The position numbers and the translations under genes were made by a program. A stretch of 64,000 nt of DNA, taken from positions 30,746,186 through 30,810,185 of the forward strand of contig OZ025258.1 of the NCBI GenBank assembly GCA_964019135.1. The letters run 5' to 3'. Shown here piece by piece: positions 576-63,600 of this stretch. The notes under the pieces are model-generated. The model did no database searches. It was given only the letters and a program-made list of their open reading frames with translations, and was not told the origin of the DNA. Every line of letters begins with the position of its first letter. The first letter of the stretch is position 1. The stretch is from Arenicola marina (taxonomy: Eukaryota; Annelida; Polychaeta; Arenicolidae).

Positions 576-3500
576 GGAAGGTCTTCCCCAAGCTGAAGAG
601 GAAGGGCAGCCGGATGTCACAGCTGAGCGGCCGCTCCGAGGACAAGTCGCTGTCGATGGACGAGCCGCCGGGGGGCGCCACTGTCGGCAGCACGCTGTCC
701 CAGACTCTGGAGGAGGAGGAGGAAGCCACTGACTACGTCTTCAGGATCATCAACGCTTTCCGGCCAGAACATATCAGTGAGTACGCGCGTCTCCTCTGGA
801 GAATAGTCTCTCTGAGAAATAATACTGACCTAACACAAGGATTCATCCTAACTGCGTTTTTTAATTGGGGAAGTAGTACATGGCAGGTTAGTGTCAGTTG
901 CTAGATTTACCAAGATTCTATCCCTGGCCAATTTCTTGTATTTGTTTCCCTTCAATATAGGCCATGTATTGCGTGGATAATAGTGAGCTTTGTATGTTGT
1001 AATTATTACTGACAGAAGTCTAAAGACTTCTGTCAGTATACTACTTTATTCGGTTTGTAAATTTGTTTGTTTGTGTGTTTGTTTATTCGCTCGATACAGG
1101 TCGCAATTCAAAACCTACGGTCATCAAACTTCACAGAAAGAAAGATTTGGGAAATAGCCCGGCTAAGTTCGTTAATGGCATATGTAGGTCAAAGGTCAAG
1201 GTCACAACGATTTTTTGAAAAAAAATCGTAGAACGCGAATATCTCCCTTAATATTAGGTCTAGAGACTTCGGGTAAGTTTCAGAATGTGCTACTATTTAA
1301 GGCGCATCTTTCAGCCGTTGATCACTTTTTGACGCGTCATACTCATTTTCGAGCTACATGACGTTTTATGTTTTCCGAAAAACGCCAAAGATGACCTTGA
1401 ACGGTTGTGCTGCGATTTGACCACTTTAGGTTAAAGATATCACTCTGGTGTTCTGGCCTCTCATAAAAATATAAATGAAACTGGCCCCTGTGAAATCTGA
1501 GATTTTTCGCATGCGTCATATGACGTCAGGATGACGTCACTTTTGGTACATACAAAAAATCGTCAAAAATCGGAAAAAAATGCTAAAAATACAAAAATGG
1601 CGCCGTATGGTAGGGAAAAAGATTCCTAGTTCAGCAGAATAATAAAAACAATATGTTCCAATCTTACTTCCGGTTCCAGGGGTGACGGCAATTCCCCATG
1701 GGACCTCCCATGTTAAAGCCCTCAATCTCTCAGGCTGGGGAAATTTTGTTTGCCCCGTATTTCATAGGTGCCTGCATCAAACAGTTTCGGGATTTTTTCG
1801 TTGGTTAAACAAGGTACCCAGTAACCATGGTCCTTACTAGAGGGAATGCGGATAATAACTGACGTCACAGGATTTGTTTGAAATTTTCCCTATTGTGAAA
1901 GATAGGGATTTTTGGGGCTTGCAGGGGCTCCCACGGGCGTCCTATTGAAGCCAACGCTCTATGTTTTCAGTTGTTGATGGATAGTAGTAGGATGAGTCAT
2001 TAACTATAAACACGGCGACATAGCCCTGTAACTTTTTGGTATATAGTCGAACGCGTTTAACATGGGACCCTATGGAGATAATCAAACTTCCTTCAATATG
2101 ACGTACTTCCGTTTGAGCGATCTCACTTTGCTTTACGACGGTGCGAGATATGGACGAGTGCAAGAGGTCTACGGTATACCCACGGCAAACGCGCGTCTCA
2201 GTTTCGTTTCTATGGCCACCGAAGATTTGCTCAATGATAAAGTATACAAATTGGGTCTAACTTAAAAAAATCCTCAAAAATCGGCAAAACAAGCTAGAGC
2301 TTAGATCTTTACGGATGGTGGTAGGGAACATACGTATCCAGATCACTATTGGCAGCTAATCTTTATTATTATTTTTATCATGGCTGCAGAGTCCTTTCTG
2401 CGTCTGTTTTTTTTAATTTATCCGTAATGATGAAGAATAGCAATTTTCGGTAATTATGTCAAGCCATTTCAGAAGAGCTGACCGTCCTACCGCCGTTCTA
2501 GTCAACGTTTTTGATTGATAGTACAAAGGTTTGTGTTTTGGTATTTGGACGTGGTCGTGCGTCATGCCATGACGTCAGCATGACGTGATGACGTCATAAT
2601 TTGGTAAATGCCATTACTGGCCAATTATACGTCATAGCGACTTCCGGTTTGTTTGAGGTTAAACCTTATACCAAGAGACAACTGGTGGTATGCGTAACTT
2701 TTTTGGTGGTACTGAAGCGTGTGCGTCAAAAACGACGTCCAAGTTTACGTTACCCGACTTAATCGCGAGATCGTCTAAGTTTCAACTACATAGGCACTAG
2801 CTGAAATCAGTAGGTACATAAGCAGGTAAAGTGAAAAACATTGAAGCTAAATTGTTCATTTTTGTAAGCGTCAGTGACGTCATGTGACGTCACGTTGACG
2901 TTTCCATGGCAACGGAACTAAGCCCAAAGTTAAAGTATAGAGAGTCTGGCCAAATTGGAAAATTCAATAAAATCAGGTGAAGAGAGAGAGAGAGAGGAGC
3001 TGTACGACATTGGTGCAAGTTACTTCTGTCAGTCCCATTCAGCCTACGGCTGATTATGGTCTTGTTTTTTAAATATCGGCTATCCTGTTTGTATTTTATA
3101 GAATGTTGAAAATTTTATTCTTGCGTTCCTCAGCTGCTGATATGTTGGATCCGAAGGCCCGGGGGGAGAAGACGGAGCGGGGTGAGAAGGGGGGCAGCAG
3201 TGGGGGCAGCAGCACCAGCAGTCTGCCCTACCCCTGGAGCACGCGGCCCGAGGAGACTCAACCGAGCCCAGGGTCGGCGAGCCGGGCCCCGCACCCGCCC
3301 TTCCCCAGCAGCATTCAGTCGTACGCCCGCTCCCAGGAGGAGTACAACACCACGTGCATTCACGCCACGGCCGGACACAGGTAGGCCACGTGCCAGTCGT
3401 ATGGCCACGTGCCAGTCGTATGACCACGTGCCAGTCGTATGGCCACGTGCCAGTCGTGGCCCACGTGTCAGTCGTATGGCCACGTGCCAATCGTATGGCC

Positions 3501-6500
3501 ACATGTATGGCCACGTGCCAGTCGTATGGCCACATGTATGGCCACGTGCCAGTCGTATGGCCACGTGCCAGTCGTATGACCACGTGCAAGTCGTATGACC
3601 ACGTGCCAGTCGTATGGCGACGCGCCAGTCGTATGCCCATGTGCCAATCGTATGGCCACATGTATGGCGACGCGCCAGTCGTATGCCCATGTGCCAATCG
3701 TATGGCCACATGTATGGCGACGCGCCAGTCGTATGGCCACGTGCCAATCGTATGGCCACATGCATGGCCACGTGCCAGTCGTATGGTCACATGTATGGCG
3801 ACGCGCCAGTCGTATGGCCACGTGCCAGTCGTATGGCCACATGTATGGACACGTGCCAGTCGTATGACCACGTGCCAGTCTTCTGGCCACGTGCAAGTCG
3901 TATGACCACGTGCCAGTCGTATGGCGACGCGCCAGTCGTGGCCCACGTGCCAGTGTAAACGTGTATACGCGTGACCTGCAACTGTCGATTGTAACTATGT
4001 GACCTTTGATCTGTGATTGTAGTCTATCACTATATCGTGTGCAGATACGAGCAATGTCGATTATAGAAATGTGACATAACTATCGTTGACCTGTGACTAT
4101 GTCTGGTGTAAACACGTGTCCTACGACTATGTTTGGTGTAGACGCGTAAACTGAGGCTCAAATGTAGACACGTGACCTGTCACTATAAAGTGTAGACAAT
4201 TGACTTGAGACTATCTAGTATAGACACGTGACCTGTCACTATAAAGTGTAGACAATTGGCTTGAGACTATCTAGTGTAGACACGTGACCTGTGGCTATGT
4301 CGGGTGTAGACACGCGTTATTGTTCCAGAAGCGCTGTCAAACAACTCTGCGACACGATGACGAGGCAAATCCTGTCGCGGGCCTTCTATGGGTGTAAGTA
4401 TCTCTACAGTCTGTACAGTCTGTTCTAACGCCGGCGGCACGCAGCCTAGGCATTAATACAATTAGCAGTAAGAGGAATTGTCTTGATAATTATAATGTCA
4501 GCATATTTTAACAAGTGATGTAAAAAGTTATTGGGCTAATAGTCTCTACCATTTTGGTCTTGGACATTTAGATTATTTTGCCGGCGTATGGAAAGTCGCG
4601 CGTGCGAAAACATTTGGGAATCGCTTCACTGAGGCTGAAGATTATTAATGTGTTTGTGCCGCGATTTTGTTTATCTCAGAGTTAACTTTGTTTTAGGTAA
4701 GACAAACAAATAATAATGATTTTAAAAGAGAGTTTACAGTTTTTATTCCACGATATCAGTATAAACGCGTTCGTCAAATTAGCAAAAGTGAGGTCCGGCG
4801 GGTTTCTGTGAGCATTGCATCTGAGCGTTATTTAAATTCCCCAATGATGTCACAAGATTGACAGGTGAGCTTTGATACACTGCGTAGGCATCTGTTGTCG
4901 AGGGCGTGTATTGTTCTCATGGTTGAGTGCTTTTCGTTCAAGCCAATGAGCAGAGAGAATCTGAGTCTCAATGTAAAAGCACGTGCGTTTGTATTCCCCT
5001 TTGACGTCACTTTCCTCGCTCCCAGAATTTAAGTCGGCATGTGCGAAAACACGTGGAAAAAGTATTCCCTTCTACTATTTGGGGCGTTACAGCTCGATAA
5101 TATAAGCGTGGAAACACAGAAGATTAATATGAGTTAAAGTTGTTTGGCATGGCACCAACTGTTTAAGCTTAATCATATGAGACTCCCTCGTTGACGCCAA
5201 TCCGAGAGAACCGGCCAGAGAACCTAACCCTCTCCGACTCGTCCGGTCTTGCAGGGCTGTCGTATTGCCGTCACCTAAAGACGGTTCGTACCCACCTGTC
5301 TGGACTGGTGAACCACAAGGTGGTTGCCGTGGACAACCCCACGGACGCCTCCTCTGGGCTGACCGTGGAGCTGTGGGAGACCCTCAGCGGCTCCGGCGTC
5401 GTAAGTACTGTCAATGGCTCCAGAAAACCATTAAAGATAATATCCTATATATGTATCCTGACCACATGGGTGATATCTGTTCATTGGCGTCATTTCATTG
5501 GTTATATTAGTTATTTATCCCACGTTCAATACCGTTACATGAAGAATCTTCCTAACATTGCGGGATGACCTATGTCAGGAAGCTATATTCCGCATGAGGC
5601 CAACCGTATTTTTTTAAATGTTGTTGGTCTACTACTCTGTGTATGATGCCACCTAATACAATCGTGTATATATGTAATATATTACCCCCCCCCCCCCTCC
5701 CCTTGACAGTTGACTGCGGAGGTTGAGGTCTACAGACTGGTGTATTACGGTGGTTGTGAGCACTCTATCAGGAAAGAGGTGAGTGCTGCAGTTTACGTCA
5801 ATTCTCGGAAGGCTCTGTTATGAATCTCGTCAGTGTGGTAGGCAATCAATTGAAGTCATATTCATTAGTGAGTGTATTAGCTTGGTATGTGTTATTACCG
5901 TCCAATGCCGATTGTATCATAGTGGTGTATGCGTAATACATGAGCTGAGGCCACTTTAACCTCCGGCCTCACGCATTGTAACCCTCTAGCCCAAACCCTT
6001 ATAAAGTTATGGACTCGCTCCACTATAACTCTAGATTCACCCCATATAACTGTATAGCCGCACCCTCTATTATCTTCTAGTCTTTTATACCACACCCTAT
6101 GACATCATCCCTTATCATCTTCTAGCCTCACCGTCTATCACCCCCTAGTCTTACCCCCTATGACACCACCCTTCAACCTCACCCCCTTGTTACCCCTCCA
6201 CCCGTCCTTACAGGCCTGGCCCTACCTGCTGGGCCACTACAAGTTCGGCAGCACGGCGGCCGAGCGGGTCGATGACGACAATGCTTTGAAGGGCCAGTAC
6301 GAGAACACCATGTCTGAGTGGCTGGCCGTGGAGGCCATCGTGCGACAGCGGGACAAGGAGGTGATGGCCGCCAACCTCGCCAAGCTCTCCCAGGAGAGCA
6401 CGGACGGCCACATCCCGCTTATCCGCAAGGACTCCTCGCTTAGCAACGACGTCTTCGAGAGCGTCGACTCGGATGACTTCTCGCACCCGGAGACGGTGCC

Positions 6501-9500: not shown

Positions 9501-10591
9501 CTACTTCTGCTACCGGTGGTTCCTGCTCGACTTCAAGAGAGGTCAGTTGTCACGTGTCACGTGGTTCACCCAACAGGTGTGTGATCATATTACGCCTGAT
9601 TATCGAACAGAGTACTGTCATACTTCCAGACCTCCTACCTTACTTCATCTTTTATTTAATTATCTCAATTCTCGCATTTCCATACATTTAAGTTGCCCCC
9701 TACTAGTTCCTTTGTATCTTTGTGATGACGCGATGATTTTGGTTTCACTCAATGTGAGTCCCCAGAGCGAGGATTGGTAACGTTATCATGTTTTGCCTTT
9801 CGCGTTTGTATTGGTTCATTCTCAAATAAATGATATTGAGTGTTGAACCTGCTTGCAGAGCTGGTGTACGATGACGTGTTCTCGGTGTGGGAGACGATCT
9901 GGGCGGCCAAGTGCATCAGCTCCCCGCATTACGTCCTCTTCATCGCCCTGGCGCTGGTCCAGTATTACAGGGAGATCATCATTGACAACTGCATGGACTT
10001 CACCGACATCATCAAATTCTTTAACGGTCAGTGGTATCTCATTAACACAAATATTGGTATAAGCCGGTGTAATCAGATTTGTTTAACAGTCAGTGACAGT
10101 AGTTCTGGCCATGGTAGCGTAACCTAATCTCATCAGATTCATTAACGGTCAGTGGTAGTCTCCTTAACAACATTGATGTAAGCCAATGTCATCAGACAAC
10201 ATCATTTTTTTTTTGGTAATGATCAATAATTCTAGTAGTAGTTATAGCAACCATGGTGATGCGAGTGCCAAAGTTTCATGCTACCATGGTTCAGTTGATC
10301 CTCCCGTAAATACCTACTGCCAGAAGATAATGGGTATGGTTGTCTCTCCTTAGTTAAATCACAATGATCTCGTTTTGGTACGGCGTTGTTCATTCTCTAT
10401 GGAGTAAGGAAACATATGAGTATGTTAACATCAGGGTAAACATAACAACACTCTTCAGTGTTTTCTTTGTTTCTTATGTTATGGGCCTTTTCATCATTAC
10501 AGAAATGGCCGAACGCCATAATGCCAAACAGGTGCTGGGCATCGCCAGAGATCTCGTCTACAAACTGCAAGATTTAATAGAGAGCAAGTAA
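576..10591 (+). CDS. SGSM: Small G protein signalling modulator (SGSM1/2-like), TBC Rab-GAP; 3' thirteen exons, 5' end outside window
   Basis: Exons seen: 576-776, 3134-3380, 4329-4393, 5255-5400, 5710-5778, 6214-7078, 7471-7556, 7930-8054, 8519-8601, 8952-9061, 9445-9541, 9859-10026, 10503-10591; all join in consistent phase and end at TAA. The first exon has the family's KVFPKLKRK and ATDYVFRII segments. Later exons give [16 protein letters not shown] and the split TBC domain: [12 protein letters not shown], then a long Ser/Gly/acidic insert (exon 6214-7078, with GSRPGS-type repeats), then [16 protein letters not shown] (IxxDxxR, arginine finger) and GYVQGMCD (glutamine finger), through to IKFFNEMAERHN. 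In this family the RUN/TBC proteins bind Rab/Rap GTPases and stimulate GTP hydrolysis on endosome-related membranes. The long insert inside the TBC domain is typical of SGSM. The N-terminal RUN domain lies upstream of position 1. Whether the orthologue is SGSM1 or SGSM2 cannot be decided here. Confidence 0.95.
1007..1038. repeat. Perfect inverted repeat, 15-bp arms, 2-base spacer
   Basis: The left arm 1007-1021 and right arm 1024-1038 are exact complements around AGACTTCTGTCAGTA. The right arm also holds the 12-mer ACTTCTGTCAGT that recurs at 3022-3033. Confidence 0.8.
1026..3033. mobile_element. Probable ~2-kb interspersed element in an SGSM intron, flanked by 12-bp direct repeats, rich in TGACGTCA
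   Basis: The 12-mer ACTTCTGTCAGT occurs at 1026-1037 and 3022-3033 and could be a target duplication. Between the copies lies low-coding DNA with at least six TGACGTCA palindromes (for example 1521 and 1532), a triple AGGTCA cluster at 1186-1204 and a (GA)n run near 2981-2996. No transposase or reverse transcriptase is visible, so the element would be non-autonomous. The family is not recognised, and the block could instead be two or three older insertions. Confidence 0.4.
3381..3955 (+). repeat. 19-bp minisatellite carrying about 19 CACGTG E-boxes, starting at the SGSM splice donor
   Basis: The unit is close to GTATGGCCACGTGCCAGTC. The first unit starts at the donor GT of exon 3134-3380 (donor reads GTAGGCCACGTGCC). 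Some units carry an extra ACATGTATGG, and others are mutated to GCGACGCGCC. The array is open in several frames on both strands, but that follows from the repeat and is not evidence of a protein. Confidence 0.9.
3957..4320 (+). repeat. Degenerate ~50-60-bp tandem repeats with further CACGTG(AC) motifs
   Basis: Phrases such as GTAGACACGTGACCTGT and TGTAGACAATTG recur at about 4168, 4225 and 4282. Four more CACGTG sites lie here (near 4115, 4167, 4222, 4280). The region follows the 19-bp array without a gap and ends just before the SGSM exon at 4329. Confidence 0.7.
4394..10502. other. Remaining SGSM introns: nothing beyond simple repeats seen
   Basis: Intron 4394-5254 shows no recognisable feature. 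Intron 5401-5709 has a poly(C) tract near 5687-5697 just before its acceptor. Intron 5779-6213 has degenerate pyrimidine-rich repeats (CACCCTCTAT/CTTCTAG-like) from about 5940 to 6205. Introns 7079-7470, 7557-7929, 8055-8518, 8602-8951, 9062-9444 and 9542-9858 show no gene or RNA. Intron 10027-10502 holds the duplications listed separately. Confidence 0.6.
10010..10195 (+). repeat. About three degenerate copies of a ~60-bp unit spanning an SGSM exon end and its splice donor
   Basis: The exon end plus donor TTAACGGTCAGTGGTA at 10021-10036 recurs as TTTAACAGTCAGTGACAG near 10082 and ATTAACGGTCAGTGGTAG near 10141, each preceded by ATCA(A/G)ATT. Downstream words (TTAACA..A.ATTG.TATAAGCC) recur as well. 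The spacing is about 60-61 bases. Confidence 0.75.
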
Positions 10592-10617
10592 GCTGGCCGC
10601 CCCCGGGAGATACATCA

Positions 10618-11756
10618 ATGGCGCCGTATCCCGGGCCACCGCTGCCGTAGATGGCGCCGTATCCCGGGCCACCGCTGCCGTAGATGGCGCCGTATCCCGG
10701 GCCGCCGCTGCCGTAGATGGCGCCGTATGCGGGGCCGCCGCTGCCGTAGATGGCGCCGTATGCCGGGCCGCCGCTGCCGTAGATGGCGCCGTATCCCGGG
10801 CCGCCGCTGCCGTAGATGGCGCCGTGTGCCGGGCCGCCGCTGCCGTAGATGGCGCCGTATGCCGGGCCGCCGCTGCCGTAGATGGCGCCGTATGCCGGGC
10901 CGCCGCTGCCGTAGATGGCGCCGTATGCCGGGCCACCGCTGCCGTAGATGGCGCCGTATGCCGGGCCACCGCTACCGTAGATGGTGCCGTATCCCGGGCC
11001 GCCGCTGCCGTAGATGGCGCCGTATGCCGGGCCACCGCTGCCGTAGATGGCGCCGTATGCCGGGCCACCGCTGTCGTAGATGGCGCCGTATGCCGGGCCG
11101 CCGCTGCCGTAGATGGCGCCGTATGCCGGGCCACCGCTGCCGTAGATGGCGCCGTATGCCGGGCCGCCGCTGCCGTAGATGGCGCCGTATGCCGGGCCAC
11201 CGCCGCCGTAGATGGCGCCGTATCCCGGGCCGCCGCTGCCGTAGATGGCGCCGTATGCCGGGCCGCCGCTGCCGTAGATGGCGCCGTATGCCGGGCCACC
11301 GCCGCCGTAGATGGCGCCGTATCCCGGGCCGCCGCTGCCGTAGATGGCGCCGTATCCCGGGCCGCCGCTGCCGTAGATGGCGCCGTATGCCGGGCCACCG
11401 CTGCCGTAGATGGCGCCGTATGCCGGGCCACCGCTGCCGTAGATGGCGCCGTAGATGGCGCCGTATGCCGGGCCGCCGCTGCCGTAGATGGCGCCGTATC
11501 CCGGGCCGCCGCTGCCGTAGATGGCGCCGTATGCCGGGCCACCGCTGCCGTAGATGGCGCCGTATGCCGGGCCACCGCTGCCGTAGATGGCGCCGTATCC
11601 CGGGCCACCGCTGCCGTAGATGGCGCCGTATCCCGGGCCACCGCTGCCGTAGATGGCGCCGTATCCCGGGCCGCCGCTGCCGTAGATGGCGCCGTGTGCC
11701 GGGCCGCCGCTGCCGTAGATGGCGCCGTATGCCGGGCCACCGCTGCCGTAGATGGC
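10618..11756 (+). repeat. 33-bp GC-rich minisatellite, about 34 copies, in the SGSM 3' flank
   Basis: Each unit reads roughly ATGGCGCCGTAT(C/G)CCGGGCC followed by (A/G)CCGCTGCCGTAG. It begins 26 bases after the SGSM stop codon and is probably 3' UTR. Units differ mainly at two or three positions, and there is one short unit near 11447. Every junction contains TAGATGGCGCC. The length is divisible by three, so long frames stay open on both strands (Arg/Trp-rich, Ala/Val-rich or Ala/Pro/Thr-rich); I do not regard these as genes. Confidence 0.95.
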
Positions 11757-11817
11757 GGGACTGCCGTCATGCCAGGAGAAGCTGGCACCACGTTATACGG
11801 ACCTGCCTGTGACGGCA

Positions 11818-12350
11818 GCACTGCAATCACCACCAAGACAAACCAGTCTGCGGTGGATGGTCGCACCGCTGGCATCTTGCACCACTGCAATCACCACCAA
11901 GACAAACCAGTCTGCGGTGGATGGTCGCACCGCTGGCATCTTGCACCACTGCAATCACCACCAAGACAAACCAGTCTGCGGTGGATGGTCGCACCGCTGG
12001 CATCTTGCAGCACTGCAATCACCACCAAGACAAACCAGTCTGCGGTGGATGGTCGCACCGCTGGCATCTTGCACCACTGCAATCACCACCAAGACAAACC
12101 AGTCTGCGGTGGATGGTCGCACCGCTGGCATCTTGCACCACTGCAATCACCACCAAGACAAACCAGTCTGCGGTAGATGGTCGCACCGCTGGCATCTTGC
12201 ACCACTGCAATCACCACCAAGACAAACCAGTCTGCGGTGGATGGTCGCACCGCTGGAATCTTGCAGCACTGCAATCACCACCAAGACCAACCAGTCTGCG
12301 GTGGATGGTCGCACCGCTGGCATCTTGCAGCACTGCAATCACCACCAACA
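11818..12350 (+). repeat. 64-bp tandem repeat, about 8 copies
   Basis: The word CAATCACCACCAAGACAAAC recurs every 64 bases from about 11823 to 12279, joined by GCGGTGGATGGTCGCACCGC. Copies are nearly identical, and the last is truncated. The array directly follows the 33-bp array. Confidence 0.95.
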
Positions 12351-12384
12351 AACCAAAACAACAGATGGTTGTACTGCTGGCATC

Positions 12385-12645
12385 ATGAACTGGCGGGTCG
12401 CCGGTAGACGACAGCACTAGATATGATGATAAAACTTGCCGGCTGCCGTTAGATGGCAGCACTGCGGTTATACTTAAAGACCGGCCGGGCGCCGATAGAT
12501 GGCAGCACTCTGGCCATCATCAAACTCACCGGCCGCCGATAGATGGCAGCACTGATCTTGAAGACTAGCTGGCGTCCCATAGGCGGCAGCACTGCAGTAC
12601 TCTTACATAGTATTTGACCACCGATAGATGGCAGCACTACTGTCA
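12385..12645 (+). repeat. Degenerate ~50-60-bp repeats sharing TAGATGGCAGCACT
   Basis: The words GTTAGATGGCAGCACTG, GATAGATGGCAGCACTC and GATAGATGGCAGCACTG, with weaker copies, occur about every 50-60 bases. They resemble the TAGATGGCGCC core of the 33-bp array upstream. Confidence 0.7.
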
Positions 12646-35377: not shown

Positions 35378-35386
35378 GATCCAGGG
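35378..35386 (+). repeat. Target-site duplication GATCCAGGG, left copy
   Basis: It is identical to 39881-39889. With a 9-bp duplication the two TIRs come into exact register. Confidence 0.85.
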
Positions 35387-35781
35387 CGGTGTCACTGTAT
35401 AGCGAAAAGACGTGTCTTTTCGCGAAAAGACACTAATCTCGCGAAAAGACAGTCCAAATGCCAATTAACACCGGTTTGAAGCTGTTGAACCGGCTGATTC
35501 TATTTGTAATGTCTTTACTGAAAGATTTAATGAAAAACTATATTGTTTAATCGGGTTCATATACGTATTTAACAAATATTTCAACACGGACGCCGTTCAG
35601 CGATCGGTACGGCTGCCGCCATGTTGGATACATACTTGCCCGCTGCCTCACTAGATGGCGTAACGCGGCAAATGATGTTATATACATGTTTGCGTTATGA
35701 GGTCTTTTCGCGAAAAGACGGTTACATCGGCGTAAAAGGGACATGTATCGCTGATAAAAGACACTTAAAGCATTAGTCATA
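35387..35781 (+). repeat. MULE left terminal inverted repeat
   Basis: 395 bases, complementary to 39486-39880. It contains two copies of the 18-bp palindrome GTCTTTTCGCGAAAAGAC (near 35412 and 35703) plus half-copies, a YY1-like GCCGCCATGTTG (35615-35626) and a CTCF-like CACTAGATGGCG (35649-35660). Confidence 0.92.
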
Positions 35782-36137
35782 TTTTGTTGTTGTTGCCATT
35801 TGCCGGTTTCGTGCAGGGCTAATCAGTTAACACCAATTAGTTTGTTACATCGAGTTTACATCTAAGGACAGTTTAGTTTAGCAAAGGCTTCTCATCAGTT
35901 GGCTTGTTACATGATTGGGTCGAGATGTCTGGAGCGAAAGTTAAATAACAATGTGGTAGAAGGGATAATTGGTGCCGGGGTAATCACTTTGGTCCAGCAC
36001 TGGCTTCTCATGTTTACTGATTATACTGTTATATTATCTACTGATTATGGGTAGATGAAGCCATGACATGGTTAATAAAGAGAACTACCATTGGCCACCG
36101 TATCGTCTATTGGCTTACAACGGGCGAAGAAATCGGG

Positions 36138-36145
36138 TATAAAAA
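36138..36145 (+). promoter_or_regulatory. TATA box of the MULE transposase gene
   Basis: TATAAAAAGG lies about 59 bases before the ATG at 36197 and inside the element, so a transcription start near 36165-36170 would give a short leader. Confidence 0.5.
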
Positions 36146-36196
36146 GGTAGCTGCTGGCTGGGAAGAGCGATCTTTGTTTGCTTTCTTGGCATCAAC

Positions 36197-39100
36197 ATGG
36201 AATTTACGAGAAAAACACGCTCTTCCAAGTATCCCTGTAGTACTTGTGGTTCATCCTGCAACAAGAACAGCATCGAATGCTCCCTCTGCCAGCAATGGAG
36301 CCATAGGCACTGTGTCCCGATGAGTCCCCGATTGCTGCAATGCTGGGGTGATGAAGTCAAAGACCTTAACTTCATCTGTCGTCGATGTGCATTTAATGAC
36401 AGTGGTGACTACGACTGTGCAGCGGCCTTGGCGCGCATTCATGGCGTGCTTCGTCGTCCCGATCTGCTGCTCAAGACTGTGGAGTCTGAGATCCTGCTGC
36501 TGCGTACGTACGGCGTTACCATGCCGACTGCACAGAGTCCTCCACCGCCCGGCCCCATAGACGCTGTGTCAGTGAGGATACTGCGAAAATTTCAGCCCAT
36601 TATATTAGCCCGCCATGAACCGCTTGCCATAAGTGGAGATGGTAACTGCATGTACAGGGCCATATCCCGCGGGATGTTAGGCAACGAAGACCAACATCTC
36701 GTCATCCGGTTAATGACTGCGCTGGAAATCGCGCAACACAGGGAGTGCTACGACTACCAGTCCCCCCAGTACAGGGACCTTATCGCTGACAACACGGTCG
36801 TTTGTGACCCATACGACAATCTACTCCTGGCCGCAGTAAAACCAGGTGCATGGTCGGAGTTACTGCATATTTATGCTGCCAGTGCTGCTCTCAATGTGGC
36901 ACTGCGGTCCTACTGCCCTCCTACGTTGAACAATGAGTTCCGTGCCGGTCCTTTGACCAGAAAGGTCTGCGGACGCGGGGTAAAGGCGTCCGCATACTCT
37001 TGCGTAACGGTGATGTGGACGCAAATGCAGGCGCCTCAGTCCATGTCTACGTTCCGCCCGAACCACTTTGTGGTCTTACAAGAGCGTGCCGCTAGACCCA
37101 TGATGGACCTAGACCTGACGGAATGGCCAGCGTTGCCCGCCTCTCCGGTTAGCCGGAGCACCAGTCTGGACGCAGACTCGGCGCCCTCCTCTCCGGTCTG
37201 TCTGGACGCGGACTCGGCGCCCTCCTCTCCGGGCTGTCTGGACGCGGACTCGGCGCCCTCCTCTCCGGGCTGTCTGGACGCGGACTCGGCGCCCTCCTCT
37301 CCGGGCTGTCTGGACGCGGACTCGGCGCCCTCCTCTCCGGTCAGCCGGAGCACCAGTCTGGACGCAGACTCGGCGCCCTCCTCTCCGGTCTGTCTGGACG
37401 CGGACTCGGCGCCCTCCTCTCCGGTCAGCCGGAGCACCAGTCTGGACGCAGACTCGGCGCCCTCCTCTCCGGTCTGTCTGGACGCGGACTCGGCGCCCTC
37501 CTCTCCGGTCAGCCGGAGCACCAGTCTGGACGCAGACTCGGCGCCCTCCTCCGCGGACACATCCATTAACGCAACGGAACGCGTAATCGCAAAGGGTGGT
37601 TGTGACCTAACAACTGGCAAATTCCTGCCCGTATCGGAGGTGATTGGATTGTTGACTGGCAATGCTAAGGCGGCTACCATTTGTCCCGACGTGCCGACGG
37701 GAGTCAAAGAAAACTGCTACTTCCTGGTCGACAATGCGCGCAACCAAAGGACACACCGCAATGTTGTCTGGGACGATTGCGGCGCATGGAAGTCACAAGG
37801 GCCCAGCCCCAAAACAACGTTCGTGCCGGATGCCACCGGTAAACTGACAACCGTTGTCCACAAAAATGGCATGTACAATGTCGAACGCAGATCAAACGGC
37901 AAGCGAGCGTTGGTTGCCTTGGACCCACAGCCACTTGCCAGCGCGTTGGTCCACGTCCAGCGGAATTACCGCAAGCACTCCTTGTGTCCTGACTACCAAC
38001 GCCGAGTGACGTGGCTGAAGGACGCTAGCGGGCTTGCTTGCGTGGAATACATCGGGAAGTTCCCGGGCACCGCACCACATGGCAGTAGTGAAAGGAACAC
38101 GCGGCCCTACATCCGTACGAAACCGGAGGTCATGGAGTCGATTAAGGCGGAAGTAACACACAAACAAACCAGGAAGGCGTTCGACTCTCTGTGTAAGGCG
38201 GCGGGAGGGGATGTTTATGCCCTTCCTAAGTCAATGAAGCAGCTGGAAAGTGCCCGATATCGGAGCCGGAAAGAAGGAGGTGTTGAAGGGTGTACTGCTA
38301 ACTTCGCAGACAACCTACAGCAATTGCTAACTCGAGCTCGAGGAGGCGACGACTTTTTGAGACGCATTACAATCGGTGACAGCCTTGTGCCATCGATAAT
38401 GCTGTACACCGACGCCCAGATACAGGACATCAAACGTTTCTGCTGCTCGGGACCCGGTTCTACGTCAACAATACTTGGGTTTGACAAGACCTTCAACCTC
38501 GGGGAGGTGCACGTCACTGTCGGCGTGTTCAAACATCTTGGAGTGAAACGCCGAGCAACCGGGGACCACCCGATCTTCGCCGGACCCATGTTCTTGCATG
38601 GAAATTCAGACTTCTCTACCTACTTCGACTTCTTCTCTCGCCTGTCTGTCCTTTTGCACGGCACCGCGGCACCTGTCTTCGGGTCCGATAACGAAAAGGC
38701 CATGGTGAATGCGATCGCTAAGGCCTTCCCGTCCAGCCGCAGGATGAGCTGCACCCGCCACCTCAAGGGGAACTTGAATGACTACTTGCAAGACAAGGTC
38801 GGCGTCAGCACCAAGCTGAGGACGGATATAACGCAGTCTGTGTTTGGACGCCAGGGCGTCGTCAACGCTGAGTCCGCGGCCGTATTCGACATGCGTGCCC
38901 TTGACGCAGAACAACGATTTGTCGCCCACGCACCACAGGCCACTCACTACTTCAAGACACGGATCCTTCCCATCCTGAAGGAAAACTACGCAACATCATC
39001 AAGACACGGCATCTCCCCTTCTTGGATAAACAACAACTGCGAGAGCATTAATCATGTTCTCAAATTAGAAACCCAATGGAAACCCCAATCCCTGGTGGGA

Positions 39101-39421
39101 CTGGTCGACATGCTGCACAACGTTGTGGTCCACCAGTACCGCCAAGCAGAGCACAGCATGGTTGGCCGTGGGGACTACGAGCTTTGCGAGGAGTTCGACC
39201 GGTTCGCCGTCCCCATGGATGTATGGGCATCCCGCACTTCAGACCAGCGTCAGCGGCATCTGGCACGCTTCATGAAGGCATACAAACTCCTCAAAGGCTG
39301 TGTCCGCTCAACAGACGGCCAACTCGTGGTCACGGCACCCACTGGCGGCAAGAAGCCATGCCAGCGCAAACGGAAGCGCTGCGCTAAAACGACGACGCCA
39401 AGTAACAAGAAGAAGGCGTAA
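36197..39421 (+). CDS. MULE transposase with N-terminal PHD-like zinc finger and OTU cysteine-protease domain (1074 aa)
   Basis: Residues 14-65 form a PHD-like zinc finger (CSTC, CSLCQQWSHRHC, FICRRC). Residues about 140-295 are an OTU domain: SGDGNCMYRAIS with Asp148 and Cys151, and His290 in NHFVVL, so the catalytic triad looks complete. Residues about 315-455 are a Ser/Pro/Asp repeat linker (LDADSAPSSP units). The MULE core has Asp763 (GFDKTF), Asp831 (GSDNEKA), a C..H motif (SCTRHLKGN) and Glu949 (NNNCESINHV), a full DDE set. The tail is Lys/Arg-rich and probably nuclear-localising; no SWIM finger is obvious. Known from the families: MULE proteins cut and paste DNA at their TIRs, and OTU domains cleave ubiquitin chains. 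Use of OTU activity in transposition is inference. The single exon has no stops. Confidence 0.93.
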   Translation: MEFTRKTRSSKYPCSTCGSSCNKNSIECSLCQQWSHRHCVPMSPRLLQCWGDEVKDLNFICRRCAFNDSGDYDCAAALARIHGVLRRPDLLLKTVESEILLLRTYGVTMPTAQSPPPPGPIDAVSVRILRKFQPIILARHEPLAISGDGNCMYRAISRGMLGNEDQHLVIRLMTALEIAQHRECYDYQSPQYRDLIADNTVVCDPYDNLLLAAVKPGAWSELLHIYAASAALNVALRSYCPPTLNNEFRAGPLTRKVCGRGVKASAYSCVTVMWTQMQAPQSMSTFRPNHFVVLQERAARPMMDLDLTEWPALPASPVSRSTSLDADSAPSSPVCLDADSAPSSPGCLDADSAPSSPGCLDADSAPSSPGCLDADSAPSSPVSRSTSLDADSAPSSPVCLDADSAPSSPVSRSTSLDADSAPSSPVCLDADSAPSSPVSRSTSLDADSAPSSADTSINATERVIAKGGCDLTTGKFLPVSEVIGLLTGNAKAATICPDVPTGVKENCYFLVDNARNQRTHRNVVWDDCGAWKSQGPSPKTTFVPDATGKLTTVVHKNGMYNVERRSNGKRALVALDPQPLASALVHVQRNYRKHSLCPDYQRRVTWLKDASGLACVEYIGKFPGTAPHGSSERNTRPYIRTKPEVMESIKAEVTHKQTRKAFDSLCKAAGGDVYALPKSMKQLESARYRSRKEGGVEGCTANFADNLQQLLTRARGGDDFLRRITIGDSLVPSIMLYTDAQIQDIKRFCCSGPGSTSTILGFDKTFNLGEVHVTVGVFKHLGVKRRATGDHPIFAGPMFLHGNSDFSTYFDFFSRLSVLLHGTAAPVFGSDNEKAMVNAIAKAFPSSRRMSCTRHLKGNLNDYLQDKVGVSTKLRTDITQSVFGRQGVVNAESAAVFDMRALDAEQRFVAHAPQATHYFKTRILPILKENYATSSRHGISPSWINNNCESINHVLKLETQWKPQSLVGLVDMLHNVVVHQYRQAEHSMVGRGDYELCEEFDRFAVPMDVWASRTSDQRQRHLARFMKAYKLLKGCVRSTDGQLVVTAPTGGKKPCQRKRKRCAKTTTPSNKKKA
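37141..37551 (+). repeat. In-frame 36/48-bp tandem repeats inside the transposase gene
   Basis: Units encode LDADSAPSSP(V/G)C or the longer form with SRSTS, about ten copies. Copies are nearly identical at DNA level, so the array expanded recently. It separates the OTU domain from the transposase core. Confidence 0.95.
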
Positions 39422-39485
39422 TGTGTGTAATGTGTGTGTGGTGCGGGGTGTGTAAATACAAATCTACTACTATGAACAAAGCTAC

Positions 39486-39880
39486 TATGACTAATGCTTT
39501 AAGTGTCTTTTAGCAGCGATACATGTCCCTTTTACGCCGATGTAACCGTCTTTTCGCGAAAAGACCTCATAACGCAAACATGTATATAACATCATTTGCC
39601 GCGTTACGCCATCTAGTGAGGCAGCGGGCAAGTATGTATCCAACATGGCGGCAGCCGTACCGATCGCTGAACGGCGTCCGTGTTGAAATATTTGTTAAAT
39701 ACGTATATGAACCCGATTAAACAATATAGTTTTTCATTAAATCTTTCAGTAAAGACACTACAAATAGAATCAGCCGGTTCAACAGCTTCAAACCGGTGTT
39801 AATTGGCATTTGGACTGTCTTTTCGCGAGATTAGTGTCTTTTCGCGAAAAGACACGTCTTTTCGCTATACAGTGAGACCC
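39486..39880 (-). repeat. MULE right terminal inverted repeat
   Basis: Reverse complement of the left TIR with a handful of differences (for example AGCAGCG versus the ATCAGCG expected near 39512). It holds the mirror-image palindromes and the mirror YY1-like (39641-39652) and CTCF-like (39608-39619) words. Confidence 0.92.
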
Positions 39881-39889
39881 GATCCAGGG
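39881..39889 (+). repeat. Target-site duplication GATCCAGGG, right copy
   Basis: It is identical to 35378-35386 at the other end of the MULE. Confidence 0.85.
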
Positions 39890-40245: not shown

Positions 40246-40381
40246 CCACAGGCACAGTAAATCGACTGACACAGAGGGGGGGGGGGGGGTCCGCACGGCC
40301 TACTAATGTTTTATTAGTAGGCCGTGCGGACCCCACCCCCCCCCCATCCCCTCTGTGTCAGTCGATTTACTGTGCCTGTGG
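40246..40381. repeat. Long near-perfect hairpin with poly(G)/poly(C) arms
   Basis: The left arm 40246-40307 and right arm 40313-40381 are complementary from CCACAGGCACAGTAAATCGA at the outside to CTACTAAT/ATTAGTAG around a 5-base loop. A run of about 15 G in the left arm pairs with C-rich sequence interrupted by A/T in the right arm. Confidence 0.85.
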
Positions 40382-44848: not shown

Positions 44849-47800
44849 CTAGTTCTTCAGAACCCATTTTCCTATTACGGAATCCCTGCAGAACGTTCTG
44901 GCGGCAATTATCAACATTATGGACAGCCAGTAAAGCTGGAATGCGAGTAGGAGCGCACACCCCATGCAGCATTTGACTGGAATATGATGGGGAACCTGCC
45001 ACCAAGACAACCCCTGCTGGATGGCGTAGGCCCAGAACATGAAGGGAAAGACGAGGATCCGGCAGACAATCCACATAATGATCAGCACCACACCATTGAC
45101 TTTGTACAGGGCAGTCTCCTTCTGGTTGAACTGTGGGGAGACAAGAGAGCGTACAGTTCAGAGCCATATATTACACGCACGCACAATGACATTTGTTAAC
45201 TTTCGCGATAGATCAGGCAAAGATGATTGTTTTGTCCGCAAATGGCAACAATGTTACCACTTCAGGTAGATTTTAGATGAGAATGGTCAGGGATTTTAAA
45301 TAGTACAATCATCGCACACATGCAACTCTTACTGCGTTATCTTGGAAATGCATAGACACTCGTTATTACCCAAATTTCAATCACTTTATAATCACCATAT
45401 GATAACTATGTTAACCATAACATGGTCACCACAATGTGGTCACTTAATGGTAACTGGAAACTGGTCACTATAGACAACACAATATGGTTATCACAATATG
45501 ATCAGTATAGACAACACAATATGGTTATCACAACTTGATCACTATAGACAACACAATATGGTTATCACAATATGATCACTATGGTCATCACAATATGATC
45601 ACTATGGTCATTACAATATGATCACTATATTATGGTCATTGCAAAATGGACACCAAACAATATGGTCACTACATTATGGTCACAACATGTTTACATATGG
45701 TCATCATAATATGGTCACTATGGTCACCACAGCATGGTCGCTATGGTCACCACAATATTGTCACTACCGCGAAGGGTAAATGGTCACATATGGCCAGTAT
45801 TAAGTCCATGATACACACGACCCATGAGGCCATGATACACCCGACCCATGAGGCCCTGATACACTCGACCAATGAGACCATGATACACTCGACCCATGAG
45901 ACCATGATACACTGGACCCATGAGACCATGATACACTCAGCCCATGAGACCCTGATACACTCGACCTATGAGGCCCTGATACACTCAACCCACGAGACCA
46001 TGATACACTCAACCCATGAGGCCATAATACACTCGACCCATGAGACACTCGACCCATGAGGCCATGATACACTCGACTCATAAGGCCCCGATACACTCAA
46101 CCCATCAGGCCCTGATACACTCGACCCATGAGGCCCTGATTCACTCGACCCATGAGGCCATGATACACTCGATCCATGAGGCCATGATACACTCGACCCA
46201 TGAGGCCATCATACACACGACCCATGAGGTTATGATACACCCGACCTATGAGACCATGGTACACTCGACTCAAGAAGCCATGATACACTCGATTCACGAG
46301 ACCCTGATACACTCGACCCATGAGGCCATGATACACTCGACCCATGAGACCATGATACACTCGACCCATGAAACCATGCTACACTCGACCGATGAGACCA
46401 TGATACACTCGACCCATGAGACCATGATACACTCGACCCATGAGACCATGATACACACGACCCATGAAACCATGCTACACTCGACCGATGAGACCATGAT
46501 ACACTCGACCTATGAGACCTTGATACACTCGACCCATAAGGCCATGATACTACTAAACCCATGAGACCATGATACACTCGACCCATGATGCCATGATACA
46601 CTCGACCCATGATGCCATGATACACTCGACCCATGAGGCCATGATACACTCGACCCATGAGGCCATGATACACTCGACCCATGAGACCATGATACACTCG
46701 ACCCATGAAACCATGCTACACTCGACCGATGAGACCATGATACACTCGACCCATGAGACCATGATACACCCGACCTATGAGACCATGGTACACTCGACTC
46801 AAGAAGCCATGATACACTCGATTCACGAGACCCTGATACACTCGACCCATGAGACCATGATACACTCGACCCATGAGACCATGATACACTCGACCCATGA
46901 AACCATGCTACACTCGACCGATGAGACCATGATACACTCGACCCATGAGACACTCGACCCATGAGACCATGATACACTCAACCCATGAAACCATGCTACA
47001 CTCGACCGATGAGACCATGATACACTCGACCCATGAGACCATGATACACTCGACCCATAAGGCCATGATACACTCGACCCATGAGACCATGATACACTCG
47101 ACCCATGAGGCCATGATACACTCGACCCATGAGGCCATGATACACTCGACCCATGATGCCATGATACACTCGACCCATGAGGCCATGATACACTCGACCC
47201 ATGAGGCCATGATACACTCGACCCATGAGGCCATGATACACTCGACCCATGAGACCATGATACACTCGACCCATGAGGCCATGATACACTCGACCCATGA
47301 GGCCATGATACACTCGACCCATGAGACCCTGATACACTCGACCCATGAGACCATGATACACTCGACCCATGATGCCATGATACACTCGACCCATGAGACC
47401 ATGATACACTCGACCCATGATGCCATGATACACTCGATCCATGAGACCCTGATACACTCGACCCATGAGACCATGGTACACTCGACCCATGAGACCATGA
47501 TACACTCGACCCATGAGGCCATGATACACTCGACCCATGATGCCATGATACACTCGACCCATGAGGCCATGATACACTCGACCCATGAGGCAATGATACA
47601 CTCGACCCATGAGGACATGATACACTCGACCCATGAGACCATGATACACTCGACCCATGAGGCCATGATACACTCGACCCATGAGGCAATGATACACTCG
47701 ACCCATGAGGCCATGATACACTCGACCCATGATGCCATGATACACTCGACCCATGAGGCCATGATACACTCGACCCATGAGGCCATGATACACTCGACCC

Positions 47801-50800
47801 ATGAGGCCATGATACACTCGACCCATGAGGCCCCGATACACTCGACCCATGAGGCCCCGATACACTCGACCCATGAGGCCTTGATACACTCGACCCATGT
47901 GACCATGATACACTCGACCCATGAGGCCATGATACACACGACCTATGAGGTCCTGATACACTCGACCCATGAGACCCTGATACATTCGAACCATGAGACC
48001 ATGATACACTCGCCCCATGAGGCCCTGATACACTTGACCCACGAGGCCATGATACACTCGACCCATGAGGCCATGATACACTCGACCCATGAAGCCACGA
48101 TACACTCGACCCGTAAGGGCCTTGATACACTCGACCCATGAGGCCATGATACACTTGACCCATGAGGCCATGATACATTTGACCCATGAGACCATGATGC
48201 ACTCGACCCATGAGGCCATGATACACTCGACCTATGAGGCCGTGATACACTCGACCCATGAGGCCATGATACACTCGACCCATGAGGCCATGATACACTC
48301 AACCCATGAGGCCATGATACACTCGACCCATGAGGCCATGATACACTCGACCCATGAGGCCCTGATACACTCGACCCATGAGGCCATGATACACTCGACC
48401 CATGAGGCCATGATACACTCGACCTATGAGGCCATGATACACTCGACCCATGAGGCCATGATACACTCGACCCATGAGGCCATGATACACTCGACCTGAG
48501 GCCATGATACACTCGACCTATGAGGCCATGATACACTCGACCCATGAGGCCATGATACACTCGACCTATGAGACCATGATACACTCCACCTATGAGACCA
48601 TGATACACGCACCTGTTTGAGGACTCCTCGGAAAGCCACGAAAGGAACCGGTAGCTCCGTCAGATAGAAACATCCAACAAAAAAGTCACCCAAATTCCCA
48701 CGCCACCACTGCAACAAAGATGCATACGCCTGTGTAGTACAATAACAATGTAGATCTTCAGATCCTATTTTTTTTAAACAGTACATACACCATGAATGAA
48801 AAATGTAAGTGCTTCACAACAGTGCGTGTCACATATGTTCGCATGGATAAGCATTGTGTTATTTTATGTCACCATAAGGCGTGCATACCCTGTCTCTCAA
48901 ATTGGGGAAAAGAGATTTATTGAGGATGATAATAAATAATCTTATAAATGTCAATGGATTGACATTAAAGACACATATATACAATGCGTAATGTATAAAT
49001 CAAGAAGGGAAAGTAACCAAACTACTCATTTTAGAAATGCTGGTACTGGTAAAAGCCAATTACCCTCATACATAACTTTTAATAATAGATCTCATACTGC
49101 ATACATAAATGCATCAAAATGCGCATTTCCAAGTGAACCAAGAAATCACATTATACCAAAACATGCATATGGTTAATAGAGTACTGGTACTCACCACAAT
49201 CACAGGTAGGTAGATAAAAGGGAAAACAAGATGGTGCATGAGCATAAATGGCTGTGTCCACATAAAGTTAACAACTTTCTGTTTTAGTGGTTGTTTAAGG
49301 GTGGCAGGTGTCTTCAGGTAGTAAGTCCGAAACATTGCAAATATGTCATAAAAAAAATATGTTGCTCCAAAGTGTGCATAAGCATCGGTCAGCCAGTGCC
49401 TGCAAAAAATTATGCAAAAATATAACCTCAATGCATATAGGATGAAAACAATGAATAAATCAGAACAAATAATATTTTACAAATGCTGCTGCTACCCCAG
49501 ATGGTCATGTGATTGTAAATTTATATTCTAATGTTAATATATATATGAATATAGTGTTACCAAATATATATACACATGCATATAAGAAATCATGCAAACA
49601 TGCTTACAAATTAATATTTTATTTCATGATTATTTTACCCATGACATCATGCATGATTTATATACTTACGTGTCATGAAGGACATCTTGATAACAGTTGG
49701 TCACAATTTTATAGCCAACTACACAAGCACATAAAGCTTGAACTGCAGTAACAGTCCTGAAATAGACAAAATGTCATATATGAAAAGGCATCGCAAGTAG
49801 TATGCAAGATCACTGTGGCACCACAAAATGAATACTAATTAATTCTCTACCTAACTTTCTAACTTTATTTCTGATTTGTTCATGATTCTGCTGATTTTTT
49901 TATCATAAAAATAACTTATACCTAAGTTAATTAGATGATGAAATAGATAAAGAAATATAGTGGTTAACGACTTATCAGACACTATATCTAATATGCAAGA
50001 ACTATTTAAAGGAGGCAGGGGAGAGGATTAATTATTTAATGAAGGGGCTCATTAAATCCCCAGGGAGAGAGAATAATAACACAAATAAAATAGGACACCC
50101 TGAAAAGAAAGGGGGGAGGGTGGGGGGGGGGGGGGTAGCATGTAGCCCAGAAGCCTGGGTTCATGGCTAGGGCCATACACGTCCTATATCCCTTTCTGTA
50201 CATATAACTTACTATAGATTTATCTATCCAAGGTATATAAAAAAAAAGCCCAAAACTAATATTCAAGGCATATTAGCCAAGAACCCTGGGTATTGGCTAG
50301 GGCCATTTTAACCCTGTTTATGGCTTCCAGACTTGTCCACTCCCAAGGAGGCGGCTGGATTTTATCCCAGCCTGTCAGATTTTAACTGCATTAACTGTTA
50401 ACAGCCATGAACAGGGCTAGGGCCAAATACACCCTGTATCAATCCCCTTCTTTGCATAATCTTGGATCTATCTCAAATAATGTAATGTTAGAAGATATGT
50501 CTAAAATGATTTAATTTAGAAGATCTAAGCTTTCTTAAAGTCTATACAAGACTATAGACTGGTTATGCCCATTTTGACTGCTAGACGATTTAACCACCAG
50601 TTGGGTTGGGGGACGTAGTTTGGGTTGTATATGGTATGAGTGTTTTGGTGGTCAATGTTTTAGGGGGTAGAGGCATGCCCAGGTGTAGTGCTAAATCACC
50701 CTGGCCAATGTTGTGTACAGAACAGTGGCCAGGGTGATTTAGCACTAGCCCAAGTGAAGAGTGATTGAGATAGCTGGTTGTTATCATTAATCAGCTGAAA

Positions 50801-61312: not shown

Positions 61313-61619
61313 CATGTGTATGAATGAATAATGAATGATATAAGAATGATTATTGAATGTAACAATGTAATATGATTATGTATACGCAAAGCGTTGCAAC
61401 AGTATTATTAGTCCTTGTGGCGCTGTTGCCAGATTCTCTAACGGAGCTACATTAATATATTTGTATTATTATTTTCATTTTTGTGCCCGTAGGTGGAGCT
61501 GTATCCGTTCATTGTCCTGAATAAATACACAAGACTTACACCGTGTGAACTGATTATTCCCACTACCACCGGACGGGGAATACATCCCCCAGGCCGGGTT
61601 ACAATGGAGCCCGACGTGG

Positions 61620-62290
61620 GGCATGACAGCAGATGTAAGTGCGTATATCGGGAAGTGCCCGCGGTGTCTACGCAGAAAGACATTGCCAAACCAGCGCGCT
61701 CCGTTGGTAAGCATACAAACGTACCAACCGTTAGAACTGTTGTGTATAGACTTCCTGAAAGTCGAACGGTCTAAAGGAGGGATCGAAAATATCCTGGTCG
61801 TAACAGACCATTTCAGTAAATATGCTCAGGCGTATCCTTGTAAAAATCAGACGGCTACTACCACTGCCAAAGTGCTGTACGGTAATTTCGTTCGACATTA
61901 TGGATTTCCAGCCAGAATTCACCCTGATCAGGGCAGAAACTTCGAGTCCAAAATAATTAAGTCTCTGTGTGACCTGACAGGCATTGCCAAGAGTCGTACT
62001 ACGCCGTATCACCCAATGGGAAACGGACAATGTGAACGTTTCAATCGTACACTGTTAGATATGCTTGGCACTCTACCAACTGAGTTGAAAGACGATTGGA
62101 AGACACATGTAACAGCACTTGCTCATGCCTACAATTGTACGCGACATGACAGTACTGGCTACTCACCATACTTACTAATGTTCGGTCGTCATCCTCGCTT
62201 ACCAGTGGACCTATTGATGGGTCTGGACGAAGTCCAAGGTGAGAAGGAGAAGGTGTCCCTTATGGTCAATATGTCAATCGTTTAAAACAG
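61620..62290 (+). pseudogene. Integrase region of the broken LTR element
   Basis: The reading frame resembles the zinc-binding end and catalytic core of Ty3/Gypsy integrases (LLCIDFLKV, IHPDQGRNFES, TTPYHPMGNGQCERFNRTL). It is treated as part of a fossil element; no host function is suggested. Confidence 0.88.
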
Positions 62291-63600
62291 AGTCTAGAGA
62301 AGGCGTATAAACTGGCCCTAGCCAAAAGTAAAGACAGTAAGGAAAGACAAAAAGAGTGGTATGATCATCGCACCCGGGGCGCCGTTGTCGCCAAGGGTGA
62401 TCGTGTCCTCATAAGGAATGTAGCGTTCACTGGGCCTCACAAGCTGGCTGATCGCTGGCAGGAAGAAGTCTATGTCGTTATCGAGCAGCCAGATCAAACT
62501 ATTCCAGTTTTCATTGTGGAACAGGAGAGTATGCCAAGACGTCGGAAGACACTACATCGCAATCTACTTCTACCTATAGGAACCGTTGATGATGTCTTGG
62601 AGGCAAGCAAGACTGTTCCCAAGAGAGTACAAGTAGAAACACCGACAGTACTACACCCCGAGGTTTCGCCTGAGACATCCGACGGAAGCGATAGCGAAAC
62701 CATTTCAGACAACGAATCTAGATTACTGCCGACAAGACTGACCCCAATATCGTTACCGACACGACAAACCCCGATACCGACACGATAAACTTCAATACCG
62801 ACACGACAAACCCCGATCCCGACACGACAACCACTGTTAAGGACGCGACGAAGACCTATACCTTCCCCGCGTAGGAGCCTTCAGCGATCTGCAGGGAATC
62901 CATCTGTGTTAGATTCCATAGAAGGTGACTCAGAGAGATCAGGCCCACAGAATAGTACTGAACCAGAACGGTTCGAGATAGGCCAACCTGAATTGGGAAC
63001 GAGGGCTGAAGACTCTTCTGAGTCGGGGACCGATCAGAACAGTAGTGGTGCCGAGGAAAATGTTCAAAGCACAAGTCCGACTGCTTCAATGGCAAACACA
63101 CCTAGACCGTTGCCGAGGCGATCGCTGCGAACTCGTAGACCCCCTGTTTGGATGTCACATGATACGTATCAGTTGAATCAGACAACCCCCTACCCTGAAC
63201 CCTTACAACAGCATGTTCAGTTACTCAAGGAAATTGTCAAAGTGATCCTTGAGAAGCCATAATTTTCTATTCGTACTGATCAAGAATTGTAATCACAATA
63301 GAGGAATCGTAGAGATTACTTTGTGAGTTACATTCTTCGAACCATTTCCCTTAATGAGGTGGTTTAATGTAAATATAGCGTATTATTAGTTTGAGACATA
63401 GTGCCCCATGCCAAACTACCCCGCTCGCTCGATACATCCCGCTCACTAGTTAAGTCCTGTTCGAGTGTTTATTTGGTCGTTGATCCTCGTCATTACGTCT
63501 TCAGTCACTAAGTAGCGTTAGATTTAGTTTAGTGTCAGATACGTAATATTATTATTACCTAGTTAATGTCGAAGACGACATTTGCTTGTGCGGGGGAATG

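Follow-up and report, generated by a model that had tools for sequence, protein, structure and literature searches.

Transposons that encode OTU or Ulp1 domains are already in print, and Mutator-like elements (MULEs) with an OTU are among them. In Dupeyron et al. (2019; PMC6446971), the table entry for MuDR-6_HM, a cnidarian element of group 14, lists an 'Ovarian Tumour Gene' beside the transposase, in agreement with the remark in the initial annotation of our locus that OTU domains had been reported in some MULEs. The same article describes Rehavkus, a MULE outgroup with a 9-bp target-site duplication (TSD), terminal inverted repeats (TIRs) of 26-400 bp, one ORF and a PHD finger, as well as Phantom (group 20), which has FLYWCH/SWIM or no zinc finger. 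Ginger1 elements carry OTU, Ulp1 or Ulp1 together with PHD, and Ulp1 has also been found in Mutators, including those of hydra and lancelet (Bao et al., 2010). Helentrons and Helitrons encode OTU and/or VTD deubiquitinase domains (Hermanns et al., 2022; PMC6431247), and transposon OTUs had, according to Hermanns et al., not previously been assayed for activity.

The element analysed here lies in a stretch of 64,000 nucleotides (hereafter the window) from the polychaete Arenicola marina (assembly GCA_964019135.1, contig OZ025258.1, positions 30,746,186 to 30,810,185 of the forward strand). Positions 35387-39880 of the window hold a MULE that is mobile and was active recently, its PHD-OTU region being conserved, and the explanation that best accounts for the locus overall, one that we consider likely with the proposed domain roles included, is an autonomous Mutator-like DNA transposon that makes a single PHD-OTU-transposase protein. 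A DDE enzyme and a PHD finger also come together in RAG1/RAG2, a DDE recombinase guided by the PHD of RAG2, but there they form two proteins of another transposase lineage with no known OTU. By description, the element resembles MuDR-6_HM as a MULE with an OTU and differs from it in having a PHD finger and 395-bp TIRs, the MuDR-6_HM table entry listing neither zinc finger nor TIR. With Rehavkus it shares the 9-bp TSD, the TIR length range, the single ORF and the PHD; however, the Rehavkus table row lists no OTU, and a minisatellite typically precedes the 3' TIR of Rehavkus, the one seen here being located within the coding linker, with TRF finding no array between window positions 37551 and 41129. 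Phantom was likewise compared by description only. Ginger1 is similar in fusing a cut-and-paste transposase to OTU, or to Ulp1 and PHD, but its transposase is Gypsy-integrase-like, its extra domains are C-terminal and its TSDs are CCGG/CCGT-specific. OTU- or VTD-bearing Helitrons are comparable as transposons encoding a deubiquitinase-type domain, and differ as rolling-circle elements with a Rep-helicase, no DDE core and no TIRs. Searches of an open-access library, with Repbase reports and most subscription journals outside its scope, listed no paper whose entry showed a PHD-OTU-MULE fusion or the exchange of such a module, a weak indication of novelty.

Elsewhere in the window, positions 40246-40381 hold a 44-bp inverted repeat that includes a run of G and has the look of a small hairpin element; some 35-45 bp along its edge match dozens of places in the genome. 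Two overlapping frames at 61554-62788 appear Gypsy-type integrase-like by eye, and the long tandem-repeat frames on both strands at 3080-4079, 10497-12420 and 46028-48659 are repeat arrays rather than genes.

MULEs mostly have TSDs of 8-11 bp and long TIRs. The element is flanked by an exact 9-bp duplication, GATCCAGGG, at 35378-35386 and 39881-39889, and ends in 395-bp TIRs at 35387-35781 (+ strand) and 39486-39880 (- strand), which match at 391 of 395 positions (mismatches at 1, 5, 123 and 368 counted from each end); beyond this boundary, four of the five positions 396-400 mismatch. The left TIR contains repeated GCGAAAAGAC motifs, four direct and two inverted. All 12 occurrences of GCGAAAAGAC in the window fall within the element, six per TIR, and the motif is a candidate binding site for the transposase. 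The transposase gene is a single open frame of 1074 residues with an ATG start at 36197-39421 (+). At 36138-36146 (+), 59 bp upstream of this ATG, stands the TATA-box-like TATAAAAAG, a putative promoter; TATAAA or TATATA occurs 42-80 bp upstream of the ATG in five of the six family representatives compared (the exception is L027), which is suggestive only and may be due to chance. The frame, the near-identical TIRs and the exact duplication had all been described in the initial annotation, and they were recovered unchanged, as were its catalytic residues Asp148, Cys151, His290, Asp763, Asp831 and Glu949, each at the position assigned to it.

Along the protein, a PHD finger occupies residues 14-64 (36236-36388, +), with the C4HC3 zinc-ligand spacing in C14-C17-C28-C31-H36-C39-C61-C64 and a conserved Trp34, and is followed by an OTU cysteine protease domain at about residues 125-306 (36569-37114, +), which contains the Asp148/Cys151/His290 triad. 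The linker includes an in-frame coding minisatellite (37164-37551, +) of 36/48-bp units with the repeat DADSAPSSP, and the MULE DDE transposase core spans residues 691-1000 (38267-39196, +), with D763, D831, C852xxH855 and E949. In MULE transposases, a CxxH motif typically follows the second Asp of the DDE triad and precedes its Glu. On the window protein alone, PF02338 (OTU) is matched above its cut-off (E 5.7e-7, 30.5 bits versus 23.3), the match stopping at residue 235, short of His290. PF10551 (MULE, over residues 760-857) is matched below its cut-off (E 5.1e-4, 20.9 bits versus 27.6), as is PF00628 (PHD) on the N-terminal piece (E 0.13, 12.7 bits versus 24). The PHD and MULE calls are firmer because relatives from the same genome match these profiles: among six N-terminal (PHD-OTU) parts aligned from this genome (A1), all six match PF02338 (best E 9.6e-8) and PF00628 (best 2.6e-6) at E<=1, and the same holds for PF10551 (best 5.2e-7) among six aligned transposase parts (A2). 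Of the domain calls made in the initial annotation, that of OTU thus stands on the window protein itself, and those of PHD and MULE stand through the relatives but not at the Pfam cut-offs on this protein alone.

Against PDB, the A1 profile found the Pygopus PHD (3.9e-10) and OTUD7B (1.1e-5); one A1 member also has a weak RAG2_PHD match (E 0.25). The transposase profile found nothing there beyond an IS256-type Mutator transposase at E 0.5, which we do not count as evidence. Neither FLYWCH nor SWIM is among the listed Pfam matches of the window protein and the A2 members, a PHD being present instead, and profiles of either protein half found no relatives in a viral contig collection. An AlphaFold2 model of residues 1-315, built with no alignment, had a pLDDT of 31.7 and was unusable, and no fold search was based on it. 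The columns invariant in all six A1 members include the eight PHD ligands, Trp34, DGNC (Asp148 and Cys151) and His290-Phe291, so the OTU triad is kept between families. Among all compared loci, the PHD ligand exceptions are Tyr at 14 in L058 and Arg at 36 in L017, and the frame of L003 is broken at this region. Wherever the position can be read, Asp148 and Cys151 are present (15 of 15 distinct loci), and His290 is kept in 12 of 13, with Arg in L029. The 15 include four loci that closely resemble the window element and a number of further close pairs; second views of counted loci and the window copy itself are left out. In A2, D763, D831 and C852xxH855 are invariant; E949 is not (Lys in L017).

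A DNA search of the genome gave 233 matches, and those examined group into at least 39 loci. Short or deleted copies predominate: 32 of the loci span less than 2.4 kb, and 23 have a segment at least 96% identical. This copy census is a lower bound, as is the set of families described below. Among the scored protein matches (43 of 11374 candidates), the window copy is the sole member of its family whose whole frame is open, and the words 'apparently intact' of the initial annotation apply to this one copy. Individual copies are labelled by genome coordinate (C1, C2 and so on, distinct from family C). The C2 copy differs from the window copy by one mismatch and three gap positions in a block of 1326 and by nine mismatches in a second block of 1799, and this near-identity supports recent movement, as had been claimed. 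The same copy lacks element positions 1324-2380 (residues 171-522), an in-frame deletion, and its far end is rearranged and 96-97% identical. In L004 a deletion (junction 483 to 2753) has removed PHD-OTU; C5, C6, C7, C12 and C20 show a similar match pattern, and this shortened form appears to have spread. Exact 9-bp TSDs were also recognized by eye in the flanks of the C2, C6 and C10 copies, and eight matching flank bases at the C1 copy (L018). Because the C6 copy has an exact TSD and, by its match pattern, no OTU, OTU loss is seemingly no bar to being moved, presumably in trans. The initial annotation had also suggested looking for empty sites. Searches with each 400-bp flank (40 candidates scored each) returned the window itself as the sole full match, the other flank matches being short repeats of at most 64 bases, so that the assembly yielded no paralogous empty site.

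The copies also vary in other respects. In a comparison that took in L002, L004, L006, L008, L011, L013 and L018, other copies have about 110 extra bases between element positions 415 and 416 (window 35801/35802), and the right end of the C1, C2, C10 and two C17 copies resembles a second left-type end; the layout of the window copy is different and simpler. The linker minisatellite varies in length between copies, largely by multiples of 12 bases, and is much longer in the C10 copy (L006/L013).

The order PHD-OTU then transposase is found in families A (window, L017, L022), B (L027, L058, L038, L033), C (L029, L030, L034, L051), D (L047, L035, L050, L052, L055, L056), E (L026, L048) and F (L053, L059), with PHD-OTU identities to the window of 25-68%; for G (L049) and H (L031/L032) only the transposase was seen, and L057 is ungrouped. 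PHD-OTU and transposase stand together in an unbroken frame in three cases, the window copy, L026 and L053. The frame of L026 runs for 1051 codons stop to stop, and L026 matches the window at 25% over PHD-OTU and at 45% over the transposase; the frame of L053 has 876 codons and is missing part of the middle. The remaining copies are broken. By eye, exact 9-bp TSDs stand beside L026 and L048 (family E), L052 (D) and L053 (F), and eight flank bases match at L047, L050 and L055. The TIRs of families D, E and F have other short iterated motifs, of about 10 or 20 bp at the ends of L047, L048, L053 and L055, possibly a ladder of transposase binding sites. A broken family C copy lies at G000 C11:30812580-30813313, about 2.4 kb past the right end of the window.

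OTU domains were also met in elements of other kinds in this genome. L040 (G000 C3:14308580-14311972) is a Helitron-type element with Helitron_like_N, DUF6570 and OTU, which 24 further OTU matches in frames of more than 1500 codons may resemble. L054, picked for its OTU, proved to be not a family member but another kind of element: an 812-codon frame (L054:2099-4534; G000 C6:15049500-15058000) combines OTU with an MSL2-type CXC domain, and its first part is transposase-like by eye, without profile confirmation, so that it is perhaps a third kind of OTU-bearing element.

Selection was judged from divergence between families because the close copies are broken and offer too few changes. Against the loci of families B and C, synonymous sites are saturated (OTU pS 0.75-0.82), and we therefore give no exact dN/dS. 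The pN of the OTU against these loci is 0.149-0.224, that of the PHD 0.19-0.26 and that of the linker 0.40-0.52, the transposase of family B loci giving 0.147-0.274 (L033, L038, L058; L027 on 44 codons only). Amino-acid change in the OTU is thus about as slow as in the family B transposase and slower than in the linker. In comparison with the more distant families D, E and F (L047, L026 and L053, respectively), pN is 0.477, 0.548 and 0.483 for the OTU, 0.397, 0.400 and 0.475 for the transposase and 0.568, 0.587 and 0.522 for the aligned linker; constraint on the OTU here falls below that on the transposase and barely exceeds that on the linker, and what is preserved is the active site and the zinc ligands. 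None of the three outcomes that the initial annotation named as refuting came about: profiles call OTU and MULE (MULE below the Pfam cut-off on the window protein alone), the OTU triad persists between families, and further copies exist. Within subfamily A, transposase dN/dS relative to the window is 0.23 for L017 and 0.29 for L022. Among recent copies, most of them broken, OTU dN/dS is not low: 0.34-0.77 within family C, 0.78 for L026/L048, 1.42 for L047/L050 (a partial match of 89 codons), and 0.21 for L027/L058 and 0.30 for L053/L059, both on few changes, all these with wide intervals, and 2.10 for the C10 copy (few changes); we read the higher ratios as the decay of dead copies.

Family C suggests that the PHD-OTU part has a history of its own. 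Its identity to the window is 60-66% over PHD-OTU, 33-35% over the middle part and about 42% over the transposase, stepping down at the linker (residues about 301-360). The PHD-OTU of family B is 67-68% identical to that of the window, slightly above family C, and its transposase stays at 49-72% past the linker, with a dip to 26-51% in its one middle-region row, whereas the transposase of family C is as distant from the window as those of families D and E (42-45%). In the tree of the PHD-OTU part, A, B and C are grouped at 95/99 and a grouping of C with D is rejected (p-AU 0.0195), and in the tree of the remaining protein a clade uniting A, B, C and H is rejected (p-AU 0.025); these AU tests are moderate, were chosen after the identities had been seen and involve long branches. 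For the transposase of family C, L034 and L029, both of them broken, are the only sources. The transposase of L034 is 46-47% identical to family D, to which the window is 42-44% identical, and since L034 is closer to D than the window is, its transposase is not simply fast-evolving; L029, on its C-terminal part only, is 34-37% identical to D. At four loci, one of them the query (C9:19487981, C10:13881037, C10:12473553 and C1:48551456), a single open frame crosses the junction of family C, which is thus not a nested insertion. Residues 138-256 of the query, past the junction, are 46% identical to family E (L026); a different stretch, residues 86-251, is 35% identical to the window. Taken together, the identities and trees point to PHD-OTU as an exchangeable module that has probably been swapped between MULE lineages by recombination in the linker.

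In the mechanism that we propose, the single protein would bind the long TIRs, with the repeated GCGAAAAGAC motifs as its probable contact sites, and the DDE core would excise the element and join it to a new site, leaving 9-bp duplications. The PHD would tether the transposase to histone H3 tails, and the OTU, as an active deubiquitinase in cis with the transposase, would either free the transposase complex of degradative ubiquitin or take ubiquitin off chromatin or repair proteins at the cut site; we give about equal weight to these two predicted substrates. Self-protection and PHD-guided editing of chromatin had both been suggested in the initial annotation, and either would fit the anatomy of the protein. 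Should the OTU be mainly a stabiliser in cis, it would remove Lys48-type chains and let the transposase escape the proteasome, a role like that proposed for the VTD domains of Helitrons (Hermanns et al., 2022) and consistent with the single open frame that joins OTU and transposase in the window, L026 and L053. Linkage preference is unreadable from sequence, however, and the PHD beside the OTU points to a chromatin substrate, and we hold such a stabilising role only as a tentative choice. Alternatively, the OTU, directed by the PHD, would edit ubiquitin on chromatin or repair proteins at the donor or target site and so ease integration or repair, in keeping with PHD and OTU remaining joined even in the family C chimera and with the resemblance of this PHD most nearly to that of Pygopus, a histone H3 reader. 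A role in DNA repair has also been suggested for the OTU and Ulp1 of Ginger (Bao et al., 2010). Histone binding is only predicted here, though, Trp34 alone being no proof of an aromatic cage, and editing of chromatin is possible but somewhat doubtful.

The other explanations concern what the domains, or the locus itself, might be instead. The long, repeated and length-variable linker could be a processing site, in which case the OTU might have a different task as a protease or ubiquitin-binding domain, for instance cleaving the protein between PHD-OTU and transposase, but OTU enzymes are isopeptidases for ubiquitin-like proteins and we think such a task improbable. Highly improbable, in our judgement, is that PHD and OTU were taken up from host genes and travel along without function: MULEs have a tendency to pick up fragments of host genes (Dupeyron et al., 2019), deleted copies without PHD-OTU seem to have multiplied and the OTU is less constrained than the transposase in far families, yet the domain order and the active-site and zinc residues are the same in families only 25-37% identical, amino-acid change is slow relative to families B and C, and deleted copies can move in trans. 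The single intact copy would also fit a domesticated host gene, a reading to which we give almost no credence in view of the TIRs, the TSD, the flanks with no other full match and the near-identical copies elsewhere.

Beyond the single locus, and more speculatively, PHD-OTU may be a portable cassette for chromatin targeting and ubiquitin editing that is exchanged among the MULEs of this genome through a minisatellite-prone linker, its deubiquitinase selected for target choice or repair beyond stabilising the transposase, an idea that we regard as more doubtful than probable. Deubiquitinase-type domains occur in transposons of several unrelated kinds, and the present locus offers an open intronless frame in which every catalytic residue is retained, together with naturally diverged relatives and what is probably a domain swap made by nature, so that the question of why transposases carry deubiquitinases becomes directly askable.
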